DNA of 64,000 nucleotides, taken from positions 682,001 to 746,000 of the forward strand of contig NZ_SAXU01000001.1 of NCBI RefSeq assembly GCF_008016455.1. Reading direction: 5' to 3'. Under the pieces are notes generated by a model. The model searched no databases. It was given only the letters and a program-made list of their open reading frames with translations, and was not told the DNA's origin. The translations under genes were made by a program, and so were the position numbers. Positions 26,969-63,352 of the stretch are shown piece after piece. This DNA comes from Brachyspira aalborgi. GTDB taxonomy: Bacteria > Spirochaetota > Brachyspiria > Brachyspirales > Brachyspiraceae. Position 1 is the first letter of the stretch; the number at the start of each line of letters is the position of its first letter.

Positions 26969-27007
26969 AAAAATAAAACCCCTATGCTCTTTTTGAACAT
27001 AGAGGTT
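26969..27007 (-). terminator. Terminator of the Ala-rich lipoprotein gene
   Basis: On the minus strand AACCTCTATG pairs with CATAGGGGTT (one mismatch) around an 11-base loop, followed by TTATTTTTTAT. Confidence 0.75.
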
Positions 27008-27045: not shown

Positions 27046-27519
27046 TTAATTTAATTTTTGAGCTGCTGTTTTTAAACTAGTAGCTGCTGTTTTTAAATCA
27101 TCAACTGCTGCTTTTAAATCTGTATTTGCTGCTGTTACTGCTGCTACCGCTCCTACCGCTGCTGTTTCTACTTTGCCTGCCTCTTCTTTTAAATTATTTG
27201 TTGCTGCTTCCGCTGCTGTTTTTACTGCTTCTACTTTTGTTTTTAACTCTCCTGTTGCTGCATCTGCTATTGCTGTTGCTGCTGTTGCTATCATTGTTGC
27301 CACTGTTTTTACTTTTTTTTCTGTTGGTGCTTGTTCTGCTGCTATTGCTGCTGCCTCTGTTTTTGCTGCTGACGCTGCTTGTTTTGCTAATTCAAGTTTA
27401 GTTGGCGTTGGGTTAGTAGGTTTACTTCCGCCTTCGTCCTTGCTACAGCTTACCGACAATAACGATAAAGCCATTACCGTTATTAATAAAGATTTAAGAA
27501 TGTTTTTTGTGTGTTTCAT
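27046..27519 (-). CDS. Ala-rich helical lipoprotein
   Basis: 157 residues from ATG 27519, which has GGAG eight bases upstream; a GTG three codons before would sit on that site and is rejected. Signal peptide with lipobox SVSC, then a charged linker (SKDEGGSKPTNPTPTK). The rest is almost pure Ala/Lys/Glu/Thr helix in quasi-repeats such as KTAAEAATNNLKEEAG and LKAAVDDLKTAATSLKTAA. The 7- and 11-residue spacing of alanines suggests a long coiled coil, like Lpp-type or amphipathic outer-membrane lipoproteins. It is preceded by four tandem promoters and a repeat-bearing leader ORF, so its expression looks variable. Function unknown. Confidence 0.85.
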   Translation of the reverse strand: MKHTKNILKSLLITVMALSLLSVSCSKDEGGSKPTNPTPTKLELAKQAASAAKTEAAAIAAEQAPTEKKVKTVATMIATAATAIADAATGELKTKVEAVKTAAEAATNNLKEEAGKVETAAVGAVAAVTAANTDLKAAVDDLKTAATSLKTAAQKLN

Positions 27520-27559
27520 TTTGCACACTCCTTTTGAATAAATTTTTTTTATAACTAAA

Positions 27560-27575
27560 CAGAGATTTCTCTCTG
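27560..27575 (-). other. GAAA-tetraloop hairpin in the lipoprotein leader
   Basis: On the minus strand CAGAGA-GAAA-TCTCTG is a perfect 6-bp stem with a GNRA loop. It lies between the leader ORF and the lipoprotein ribosome binding site, where translation of a longer leader ORF would unfold it. Confidence 0.7.
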
Positions 27576-27670
27576 ATAAGCTATCGAAAGTAATTGAAGT
27601 TAAAAAGATTTTAACTAAATGTAAAAAATATTTTTGAAATAGAAATTTAAAATAATTATTTAAGATATAA

Positions 27671-27742
27671 TTATGGCTTTGCTTTGCTTTGCTTTGCTTT
27701 GCTTAACAAATTTACAGTATTGTTATTTGTTGTAGTTTTCAT
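27671..27742 (-). CDS. Leader ORF with an AAAGC repeat upstream of the lipoprotein gene
   Basis: Start ATG 27740-27742 with GAGGAA ten bases upstream. The ORF encodes MKTTTNNNTVNLLSKAKQSK then AKP and stops at TAA. The (AAAGC)n repeat makes its second half. With the present five full units it has 23 codons; with four it also stops soon after. With six, the frame stays open for 53 further codons and enters the lipoprotein ATG in frame. The repeat unit of five bases means each slip changes frame. Probably a regulatory leader rather than a functional peptide. Confidence 0.55.
   Translation of the reverse strand: MKTTTNNNTVNLLSKAKQSKAKP
27676..27704 (-). repeat. Pentanucleotide repeat (AAAGC)5.8 on the minus strand
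   Basis: Five perfect GCTTT units plus GCTT on the plus strand. It lies inside the leader ORF of the lipoprotein gene. Such a tract is prone to slipped-strand length change. Confidence 0.95.
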
Positions 27743-27757
27743 ATCAAACTTTCCTCA

Positions 27758-27769
27758 CCGATTTCTCGG
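27758..27769 (-). other. GAAA-tetraloop hairpin before the leader ORF
   Basis: On the minus strand CCGA-GAAA-TCGG, immediately upstream of the GAGGAA ribosome binding site of the leader ORF. It may stabilise the 5' end or tune access to that site. Confidence 0.6.
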
Positions 27770-27788: not shown

Positions 27789-28002
27789 ATTATACAACAT
27801 TTAAAAAATTAGTCAATAGTTTATTTTAAATTTTTTTCAATATTGATTAATTTAATTTAATAATATTATAAAACATTTTAAAAATTTTGTCAACTATTTA
27901 TTTTAATTAATTGAGTAATATTTTACAATATTTAAAAATTTTTGTCAACAAAATAATTTAAATATTTATTAACTATAATACAATCTTTTAAAATAAAGTC
28001 AA
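27789..28002 (-). promoter_or_regulatory. Array of four tandem promoters for the Ala-rich lipoprotein gene
   Basis: Four promoter-like pairs on the minus strand at near-regular spacing. Pa: TTGACT/TATAAT at 27789-27816. Pb: TTGACA/TATAAT, 17-base spacer, at 27865-27893. Pc: TTGACA/TAAAAT, 17-base spacer, at 27920-27948. Pd: TTGACT/TATTAT at 27975-28002. The intervals are 76, 55 and 55 bases. The surrounding bases are alike, so the array probably grew by duplication. The stretch from 28003 to the tRNA promoter holds no gene. Confidence 0.7.
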
Positions 28003-60544: not shown

Positions 60545-61957
60545 TTAAAATCTAAAATAAATAAAAGGGTTATAAGTGCCGTTCACTAAATACATAATAC
60601 AAATAAATAATAAGATAAATTGAATCACGCTTTCAAGTATATAAACCTTGTTTGAAAATGTAGCTTCTCTAACTTTTGGAAATATGCTTTGAAATAATCC
60701 GCTAAATAAAATGCCAAATATGAAACAGACAAAAGTTTGAGGATAAAAGAAATAACGGACTGTATAAATACTTTCTTTATAACTAAACATTAATTTATAT
60801 AATTCAAATGCATGTTTTAAATCATCTGCTCTAAATAAAACCCAACCAATTACAAATACAAAGATTACATAAATATGATTGATAAACTTTAATTTATTCT
60901 TTTCTAATAATTTGCCTAAAAATATTCTTTCGATTACCAAAAAGAAACCATGAAATAATCCCCATAAAATAAAATTATAACTCGCTCCATGCCATAAACC
61001 TGTGGCAAAGAAAACTATTAAAAGATTTATATATGCGAATAATTTTCTTTTTCTATTTCCTCCAAGCGGAATATATAAATATTCTTTAAACCAAGTCGAT
61101 AAAGATATATGCCAGCGTCTCCAAAACTCTTTTATAGATTTCGATATATAAGGATAATTAAAATTCTCTAAAAAATTAAATCCGAACATTTTACCCAAAC
61201 CGATAGCCATATCCGAATAACCCGAAAAATCATAATATATTTGAAGAGTATATAAAACAGAGGCGCACCATACTAAAGCCGTGCCTAATTCATCTGTAGG
61301 TTGTTTCAATATTTCATCGCAAGATAATGCAAACATATTTGCCAAAATTACTTTTTTAGATAAACCGTAAATAAATCTTTTAATTCCGTAAAAAATATTT
61401 TCTAAACTCTCATTTCTATTTAATATTTGATTTTCAATATCATGATACTTCACTATAGGACCAGCTATAAGTTGAGGAAAAAATGAAATATATAAAGCCA
61501 AATTAAATATATTTTTCTGCGCTTTATTATGTCCTCTATAAACATCGATAACATAAGATAAAGCCTGAAAAGTATAAAAAGATATTCCTATTGGCAAAAC
61601 TATATTTGTTAATTCTATTATTTTATTTTGAGATAAAGAATTTATAATTGAAATAATAAAATTCGTATATTTGAAATATCCTAATATTGATAAATTTATT
61701 ATAATGCATAAAGCCAAATATATTTTTTTATTTTTTAAATTATTATCTTCTATCGCTTTATCTATAAGTAATGCGAAAATATAATTTATGATTATTGAAG
61801 AGAGCATTATTAAACTATAGCTAACTCCTCCCCAAGCGTAAAATATTATACTCGATATTAAAAGCAAAATATTTTTAAATCTCTTATCGATTAAATAGTA
61901 TGAACAAAATACTAACGGAAGAAAAAGCCAAAGAAATATCATAGAGCTAAATAACAT
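60545..61957 (-). CDS. MBOAT-family O-acyltransferase (AlgI-like)
   Basis: 470 residues, 10-12 membrane segments. MBOAT hallmarks: FPQLIAGPIVKYHDIE, YDFSGYSDMAIGLGKMFGF, NFNYPYISKSIKEFWRRWHISLSTWFKEYLYIP and the catalytic His in ATGLWHGASYNFILWG. It passes acetyl groups across the membrane to the SGNH enzyme for glycan acetylation. The leader contains a strong promoter, a repeat-bearing short ORF and a hairpin, so expression may be phase-variable. The site before the ATG (CGGGGTTATT) is not a normal ribosome binding site. Confidence 0.92.
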   Translation of the reverse strand: MLFSSMIFLWLFLPLVFCSYYLIDKRFKNILLLISSIIFYAWGGVSYSLIMLSSIIINYIFALLIDKAIEDNNLKNKKIYLALCIIINLSILGYFKYTNFIISIINSLSQNKIIELTNIVLPIGISFYTFQALSYVIDVYRGHNKAQKNIFNLALYISFFPQLIAGPIVKYHDIENQILNRNESLENIFYGIKRFIYGLSKKVILANMFALSCDEILKQPTDELGTALVWCASVLYTLQIYYDFSGYSDMAIGLGKMFGFNFLENFNYPYISKSIKEFWRRWHISLSTWFKEYLYIPLGGNRKRKLFAYINLLIVFFATGLWHGASYNFILWGLFHGFFLVIERIFLGKLLEKNKLKFINHIYVIFVFVIGWVLFRADDLKHAFELYKLMFSYKESIYTVRYFFYPQTFVCFIFGILFSGLFQSIFPKVREATFSNKVYILESVIQFILLFICIMYLVNGTYNPFIYFRF

Positions 61958-62050: not shown

Positions 62051-62107
62051 CTATATGTATTGTATTGTATTGTATTGTATTGTATTGTATTGTATTGTAT
62101 TGCGCAT
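62051..62107 (-). CDS. Leader ORF with an ATACA repeat upstream of the MBOAT gene
   Basis: ATG 62105-62107, weak ribosome binding site (AGTAGA). With the present nine units it encodes MRNTIQYNTIQYNTIQYI and ends at TAG. With ten units the frame stays open through the hairpin and past the MBOAT ATG, ending at TGA 13 bases inside that gene. With eight it ends at a TAA shortly before the MBOAT start. A regulatory role is inferred; translation is unproven. Confidence 0.4.
   Translation of the reverse strand: MRNTIQYNTIQYNTIQYI
62056..62102 (-). repeat. Pentanucleotide repeat (ATACA)9.4 on the minus strand
   Basis: Nine perfect TGTAT units plus TG on the plus strand, in the 5' leader of the MBOAT gene, inside a short ORF. 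A slippage-prone tract. Confidence 0.96.
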
Positions 62108-62257: not shown

Positions 62258-63247
62258 TTATATAAGATTTATATTTTGCATCTCGTTAATAAAATTTTTA
62301 ATTTTATTTGATTTAATAAAGGCGTTCATTTTATTTCTTAAATACAATTTTACTAAAAAATCTATCGGATTATATATTTTATCGTTAGTTCGTTTATTAT
62401 ATATTAAATCTAACAAAATATTACTGCAATAATCATAATACATTTTTCTTATTTCATCTCTATTCTTTCTTATCGGCATCCACCATACTATTTTATTTAT
62501 GTATTTTAGAATATTATTATCAATAATTTTTCTCTTATCTCTTAATGCATTAAAAGGGAAATTTTTGCTATTTACTTCAAACTCTCCAGCATACACGGTA
62601 GAAACATTATAAATTTTAGAGAATATAGAAAAAACACTTTGGTCATGTCTATGTTCTATAAATCCATCCAAATTTGGCAATTTTGAAGGAGTATCGTCAA
62701 CTAAAGAAAAATCGTCATAAAAAACTTGAAGCCATTTATTAACAAATTCTAAATTAATATCATTCTTTTCAAATATACAAATAGTTGCAGGTCTCATCGA
62801 AGTGTCTGTAATATTTTTATCTTTGAGTTTATCGAAATAATTGAATAAATCGGCTTTTGTATAATGGGCTTCTACCCAATGCGATTTATAGCATAAAGCT
62901 TTATGTTCAATTACAATATCCAAATATTCGTAAAATCGTTTTTCTCCTTCTTTATTTATATGACAACCTACATCCGCATAAACTAAAATATCGCCGTCTT
63001 TTATATTTTCTAAAGTTTTTAAGATTATAAAAGGTTTCCAGCACCAATAACCAAATCCTCTACTCGGAACTAATTTATGAGATAATAACGCTTCAAATTT
63101 TTCATCTTTCGGCAAATTATATTCGTTGTAAATAAAAATATTGTCGAAAAAATTACTCTCTTTTGCCTGATTATGAAATCTAATAATAGACGGCATAAGT
63201 TCTATATTAGCGAAAGCGCATAAGTATATGTTTCTTCCCTTATACAT
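62258..63247 (-). CDS. Glycosyltransferase-like protein with IVWWxPIRKxRD tail
   Basis: 329 residues, no signal. N-terminal NIYLCAFANIELMPSIIRF, RGFGYWCWKPFIILKTL near residue 85 and DILVYADVGCHIN, where an acidic motif like the DxD of nucleotide-sugar transferases stands. HRHDQSVFSIFS is another segment typical of this family. The C-terminal KIVWWMPIRKNRDEIRK matches the N terminus of the methyltransferase at 14445-15371. Likely in surface polysaccharide synthesis. A repeat-bearing leader ORF lies upstream. Confidence 0.72.
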   Translation of the reverse strand: MYKGRNIYLCAFANIELMPSIIRFHNQAKESNFFDNIFIYNEYNLPKDEKFEALLSHKLVPSRGFGYWCWKPFIILKTLENIKDGDILVYADVGCHINKEGEKRFYEYLDIVIEHKALCYKSHWVEAHYTKADLFNYFDKLKDKNITDTSMRPATICIFEKNDINLEFVNKWLQVFYDDFSLVDDTPSKLPNLDGFIEHRHDQSVFSIFSKIYNVSTVYAGEFEVNSKNFPFNALRDKRKIIDNNILKYINKIVWWMPIRKNRDEIRKMYYDYCSNILLDLIYNKRTNDKIYNPIDFLVKLYLRNKMNAFIKSNKIKNFINEMQNINLI

Positions 63248-63292: not shown

Positions 63293-63352
63293 TTAGAGTA
63301 TAATTATAGTTCTGTTCTGTTCTGTTCTGTTCTGTTCTGTTCTGTTCTTCAT
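63293..63352 (-). CDS. Leader ORF with a CAGAA repeat upstream of the glycosyltransferase-like gene
   Basis: ATG 63350-63352, AAGG nine bases upstream. With the present seven units it encodes MKNRTEQNRTEQNRTIIIL and ends at TAA. With eight units it ends at once (CTA TAA). With six the frame stays open to the next gene and its TAA overlaps that start (ATGTATAA). A hairpin AATTATA/TATAATT (63284-63305) follows the repeat. Regulatory role inferred. Confidence 0.5.
   Translation of the reverse strand: MKNRTEQNRTEQNRTIIIL
63310..63348 (-). repeat. Pentanucleotide repeat (CAGAA)7.8 on the minus strand
   Basis: Seven perfect TTCTG units plus TTCT on the plus strand, in the leader of the glycosyltransferase-like gene and inside a short ORF. 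Confidence 0.96.

Follow-up and report, generated by a model that had tools for sequence, protein, structure and literature searches.

Anatomy and reading frames of the lipoprotein locus

The window, by which we mean the whole stretch of 64,000 nucleotides of Brachyspira aalborgi DNA that was analysed, carries on its minus strand a gene for an alanine-rich lipoprotein of 157 amino acids (27046..27519; all positions are window coordinates), recognised as an ORF with the lipobox LLSVSC. A Pfam search of the lipoprotein gave no match, and its family is mainly found in B. aalborgi. Reading 5' to 3' on the minus strand, the gene is preceded by four tandem promoter-like sites, a small hairpin, a Shine-Dalgarno sequence, a leader ORF, a pentanucleotide tract, a spacer and a ribosome site AAGGAG (27528..27533), and it is followed by a hairpin (26977..27007) that a pattern scan scored as resembling an intrinsic terminator. 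The promoter-like sites extend from 28002 to 27789, partly inside 55-bp repeats; the proximal one, TTGACT-16-TATAAT (27789..27816), which we assign to the leader, agrees with the consensus at 11 of 12 positions, and a further one (27893-27865) at all 12. More than one promoter-like site was also seen at several paralogous leaders. The small hairpin, CCGA-GAAA-TCGG (27758..27769), was read from the sequence in the 5' untranslated region just upstream of the leader Shine-Dalgarno sequence and is present in most AAAGC leaders; a small hairpin abutting the leader Shine-Dalgarno sequence recurs with different repeat units as well (leaders in L139 and L133). An Rfam search returned only a tRNA-Ser and an antisense artefact below the gathering score.

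The leader ORF (27671..27742) starts at an ATG at 27742-27740, has 18 relatives in the genome and, at its present five repeat units, a closed phase, encodes the 23-codon product MKTTTNNNTVNLLSKAKQSKAKP. The tract within it (27676..27704) consists of five full AAAGC units (27700-27676) and a preceding AAGC, counted by TRF as 5.8 copies; its unit is not a multiple of three and it is longer than expected by chance. The preliminary description had placed the repeat inside an ORF equipped with its own ribosome site, which is indeed what we found, with the Shine-Dalgarno sequence GAGGAAAG at 27756-27749. Between the tract and the lipoprotein gene lies a spacer of 156 nucleotides, or 52 codons (27520..27675), in which the paralogous copies differ by in-frame insertions and deletions.

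We translated the leader in silico for every repeat number (n) from 1 to 12. At n = 3, 6, 9 and 12 the frame met no stop in the 52 codons of the spacer and stayed open to the end of the lipoprotein ORF (27519-27046), whereas at n = 4, 5, 7 and 8 it stopped at once, four units giving 25 codons and five giving 23, in agreement with the early stops described for these two numbers. The frame had also been said to join the lipoprotein gene at six units; it does, through all of the spacer, but six is one instance of a rule, since the spacer is free of stops solely in the frame entered at n = 0 mod 3, and the other two frames stop 2 and 13 nucleotides past the tract. Judged from the sequence, a change in unit number thus alters the frame that is translated into the lipoprotein gene. 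Since some phase was open to the gene in 4% of dinucleotide-preserving shuffles of this spacer, the lipoprotein locus taken singly is only suggestive.

The spacer also contains a two-part hairpin (27551..27584, minus strand; z -2.95) with an outer stem ATAGCT/AGTTAT and an inner stem-loop CAGAGA-GAAA-TCTCTG, located some 18 to 50 nucleotides upstream of the lipoprotein ribosome site. Compensatory changes support it: in an alignment of ten paralogous loci, four of the five inner pairs are changed on both sides and 99.1% of the cells are paired. Although it resembles a terminator by pattern scan, its T run is taken up by pairing within the outer stem. When the last 90 nucleotides before the start were folded, the ribosome site was not commonly hidden (mean z -1.26), so a single sequestering structure is unsupported. 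With regard to attenuation of the trp type, the leader, apart from TTT and NNN, lacks runs of any one regulatory amino acid. The leader peptide was considered as the active part but is disfavoured, since the nucleotides ahead of the tract are conserved yet read in different frames (L110, L114, L099 and L095), which makes it unlikely that the peptide itself matters.

Recurrence of the leader with AAAGC and other repeat units

The assembly comprises 2,504,147 bases in 8 contigs and derives from short reads, so that long tracts may be miscounted, although tracts of 5 to 19 five-bp units should fit within one read. Matches to the leader region occur at some 39 sites of the genome. All AAAGC tracts that we examined sit in such a leader, which gives 19 loci with TTAAGC(AAAGC)n and n ranging from 3 to 19. 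The flanks of the closest paralogous leaders are 93-98% alike within this one strain, and from such paralogs the repeat number of the lipoprotein locus itself would be expected to vary. The genes behind AAAGC leaders encode a family of lipoproteins that share the signal peptide, a porin-like protein, an ABC transporter ATPase, a dynamin-like GTPase, a TM2 protein and a SpoIID-domain protein. Among 26 genomes of the genus, these leaders are restricted to the B. aalborgi genome and B. catarrhinii; scanning the collection for the tract gave, beyond B. catarrhinii, just one chance match, in Aliamphritea, and scanning viral contigs gave one chance match in an unrelated phage. L110 and L114 are near-identical leaders, yet the genes behind them in B. 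aalborgi and B. catarrhinii differ, which looks like an exchange of partners by the control cassette. Some lipoprotein paralogs look retired (L010 and L015/L232), one with an interrupted AAAGC tract and one without a leader and with an in-frame stop.

A census of sampled stretches totalling 864 kb of the genome revealed 4 GC-containing heptamer tracts and 24 pentamer tracts of at least 4 units, whereas three Markov simulations produced 0 such pentamer tracts; tetra-, hexa- and octamer tracts were absent from this sample. Extrapolated in proportion, the sample corresponds to about 70 pentamer tracts genome-wide; 700 kb of other Brachyspira contained one. Most of the pentamer tracts lie in a short ORF behind a strong promoter, and the genes downstream of tracts other than AAAGC include methyltransferases, a glycosyltransferase of family 61, a radical SAM protein, an MBOAT acyltransferase and an LPP20-like lipoprotein. 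Three sampled tracts lie at the 3' ends of coding genes and not in leaders (L121:8884-9144, L120:4974 and L121:19906); the first of these runs to 52 pentamer copies.

Two further pentamer tracts, both on the minus strand, lie in the window and obey the same phase rule as the lipoprotein locus. The first, (AATAC)9 at 62056..62102, is in a short leader ORF before the MBOAT acyltransferase gene (60545-61957); in the n = 1 mod 3 phase the leader stop overlaps the second ATG of the gene, forming ATGA. The other, (AGAAC)8 at 63309..63348, is likewise carried by a short leader ORF, here ahead of a glycosyltransferase-like gene (62258-63247; so labelled by inspection only, Pfam giving no match), and at n = 1 mod 3 the leader frame terminates in ATGTATAA across the gene start. 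Both are now closed. Because translation of a pentamer repeat runs through every register, the repeat can be read only when all five of its cyclic triplets are sense codons. Each of the 15 distinct units, heptamers included, proved to be stop-free on the leader strand, while 7 of them contain a stop on the opposite strand. The design extends beyond the pentamer expansion: in other, more distant Brachyspira, leaders containing an (AAAC)39 tract (L181:9739-9895) and a heptamer tract (L167:13355-13448) follow the rule too, their open phase terminating at the next gene in ATGA or TAATG.

The phase rule over 35 leader loci

For 35 leader loci we compared the three frames that follow the tract, taking dinucleotide shuffles of the spacers as the null. 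One phase reached the gene in 33 of them, against 4.6 expected, and the remaining two frames usually stopped much earlier. When related spacers were merged into families, the rule held in 10 of 11, against 2.6 expected (P about 6e-11). The fitting loci divide into 10 in-frame fusions, 12 whose open phase ends at most 25 nucleotides after the start position and 11 in which it ends at most 25 nucleotides before; at one of them, L126, the start had first been placed too early, and with the corrected start the open phase ends 18 nucleotides before the gene, a near-start stop and not a fusion, so that it fits either way. The two leaders that do not fit are L111 and L125, the latter with a stop 37 nucleotides before the start. 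In ordinary intergenic regions 13 of 35 would be expected to reach the start, a figure above that of the shuffles, probably owing to mis-called start codons that leave the gene's own frame open upstream. Counting stops at the start avoids this problem: the open phase ended within 6 nucleotides of the start codon at 12 of the 35 loci, where length-matched ordinary intergenic regions predict 0.73. The junctions formed in the open phase are of the types ATGA, TAAGGAG..ATG and TAGAATG, and by the same count the leaders and their genes have, as a class, the layout of coupled ORF pairs, the lipoprotein locus itself being a fusion in its open phase.

The frame is also kept where sequences diverge. 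Paralogous lipoprotein spacers differ in length by 6, 42 and 48 nucleotides with the frame preserved, and where a leader begins in another frame (L110, L095, L114) the spacer is shifted to compensate. A related lipoprotein gene, L236, stands behind a leader that is unrelated and carries (AACTC)8, with a spacer that also differs; here again only one phase, that of n = 7 or 10, enters the gene. The B. catarrhinii leaders L113, L114, L115 and L117 obey the rule as well. One could suppose that the tracts are neutral microsatellites that spread with a duplicated 5' cassette and have no switch function, and the AAAGC leaders are in fact recent copies of one another; however, the same rule operates in unrelated leaders with 14 other units, and neutral repeats would not account for the absence of tetra-, hexa- and octamers from the 864-kb sample, so that we find this explanation scarcely credible.

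More weight has to be given to the view that the leader ATG is the real start of the gene, that the repeat thus lies inside the gene and that the open phase makes an N-terminally extended lipoprotein, as in an Opa-like switch. The open phase is an in-frame fusion at the lipoprotein locus and at nine more of the 35 loci, and at L095, L113 and L151 a signal peptide follows the tract without a start of its own, which makes some members of the class Opa-type. On the other hand, 23 of the 33 fitting loci end at or just before the downstream start and produce no fusion, and at the lipoprotein locus the 52-codon spacer leads to AAGGAG with an ATG (27533-27517) and a complete signal peptide, which are kept among paralogs. 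For the lipoprotein gene we therefore regard an Opa-like switch as unlikely, if still to be reckoned with. The preliminary description had left the outcome of the open phase between an extended fusion and coupled translation; of the two, coupling, that is, delivery of ribosomes to the gene's own start, is favoured, and the extended fusion is disfavoured, since most loci are not in-frame fusions and the fused ones retain the downstream ribosome site.

At present, 31 of the 33 fitting loci are closed, where two thirds would be expected (P about 2e-4); the two open ones are L107b (ABC transporter, n=9) and L137. The excess may reflect selection for silence in culture, or it may mean that the logic is inverted, with the short leader as the expressed state and read-through of the spacer repressing the gene, whether through occlusion or because the resulting fusion is useless. 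That the lipoprotein gene possesses its own ribosome site would suit such an arrangement, but a stop that coincides exactly with the start codon (ATGA) or with the ribosome site (TAAGGAG) marks a junction for reinitiation, not occlusion, and L095, L113 and L151, lacking another start, could be expressed only in the open phase. We thus hold inverted logic to be improbable. Since so many loci are closed, we assign ON to the open phase on the strength of the coupling junctions and of the few loci that lack another start.

A proposed frame-controlled switch and its relation to known systems

Taken together, these observations make it quite likely that the locus is a phase-variation switch, in which a dedicated promoter, a repeat-bearing upstream ORF and a stop-free spacer deliver ribosomes to the start of the surface-lipoprotein gene. 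The firm part of this proposal is its anatomy, the phase rule, the recurrence with many units and genes, and the avoidance of stops. In living populations, slippage by one unit would shift the leader frame. In one phase of three, the spacer would be translated up to or through the gene start, by coupling or in-frame entry, and the gene would be on; in the other two, translation would stop within a few codons, leaving about 150 nucleotides untranslated and expression low. We infer the ON state from what the fused and the coupled loci share, which is the arrival of ribosomes at the gene's own start region in one phase. Silencing in the closed phases could operate via the spacer structure, which a translating ribosome would open, via mRNA decay or via Rho-dependent polarity. 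With its good ribosome site, the lipoprotein gene might be translated in every phase. Phase variation through an upstream ORF, as suggested in the preliminary description, is thus the best-supported reading, given the leaders that reach the downstream start in one phase, the open phases that end within 6 nucleotides of the start codon and the absence of stops from every register of the units, which holds for the leader strand only.

Beyond this locus, we lean towards the view that some tens of unrelated surface and envelope genes are under one design, composed of a promoter, a disposable leader ORF in which the repeat may be any pentamer or heptamer free of stops, and a spacer constrained mainly to keep one phase open up to the start. 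The control unit would be separable from the gene, reused by duplication and reached independently with many units; most of the genes would be silent by default, each cell expressing a small random subset. If this is true, expression is predicted to follow n mod 3 at every locus, a little-studied human gut spirochaete would possess a large combinatorial surface repertoire, and searches for phase-variable genes that are restricted to repeats within annotated genes would miss such loci.

Known systems share single elements with this design. In Neisseria fetA, a change in repeat length alters the promoter. The same is true of Haemophilus hmw (PMC2651432), and in both cases the repeat lies, as here, upstream of the gene and outside it. 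From such cases, and from the conserved, terminator-like hairpin of the spacer, it could be argued that repeat length acts on transcription or mRNA structure and that the reading frame is irrelevant. However, whereas promoter strength is changed in fetA and hmw, our tract is neither in nor upstream of the promoter (27816-27789) but downstream of it, transcribed and in a translatable frame, and a length effect has no need for a stop-free spacer, for units that are stop-free on one strand or for indels that keep the frame; we consider it very improbable. A frame-dependent switch is closer to Neisseria opa, in which (CTTCT)n drives the phase variation of paralogous surface-protein genes that each have an individual n (PMC5320596). 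In both, a pentanucleotide tract lies close to the 5' end of a frame that is translated, and the surface proteins form a paralogous family, but the opa tract is inside the frame of the gene, as it is in L095, L113 and L151, whereas the lipoprotein locus has a separate leader, followed by a 52-codon spacer and then by another ribosome site and start.

Another comparison is offered by lex2A, a short repeat-bearing ORF ahead of lex2B. In Haemophilus influenzae lex2A, the number of (GCAA)n units modulo 3 sets ON or OFF (PMC6479036 Table 1), so that there, too, a repeat-bearing frame decides by n mod 3, but lex2A is one locus with a tetranucleotide, whereas here dozens of loci are concerned. We saw no reference to the design in the genome paper of the strain (PMC6779451) or in a recent review of phase variation (PMC11868660); in the open literature, repeat slippage is known and coupling is known, and we found no general leader cassette that unites the two over dozens of genes. 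A co-located stop and start is a signature used for translational coupling (PMC3711429), and the open-phase junctions, with ATGA or a stop on the ribosome site, are of this type; ordinary coupling of overlapping ORFs is constitutive, however, whereas here a hypermutable tract would decide whether the first ORF reaches the junction. Thus, while the tract in usual repeat-driven phase variation is in the gene or its promoter, here it is carried by a separate leader that can be attached to any gene and that leaves the protein and its signal peptide untouched.
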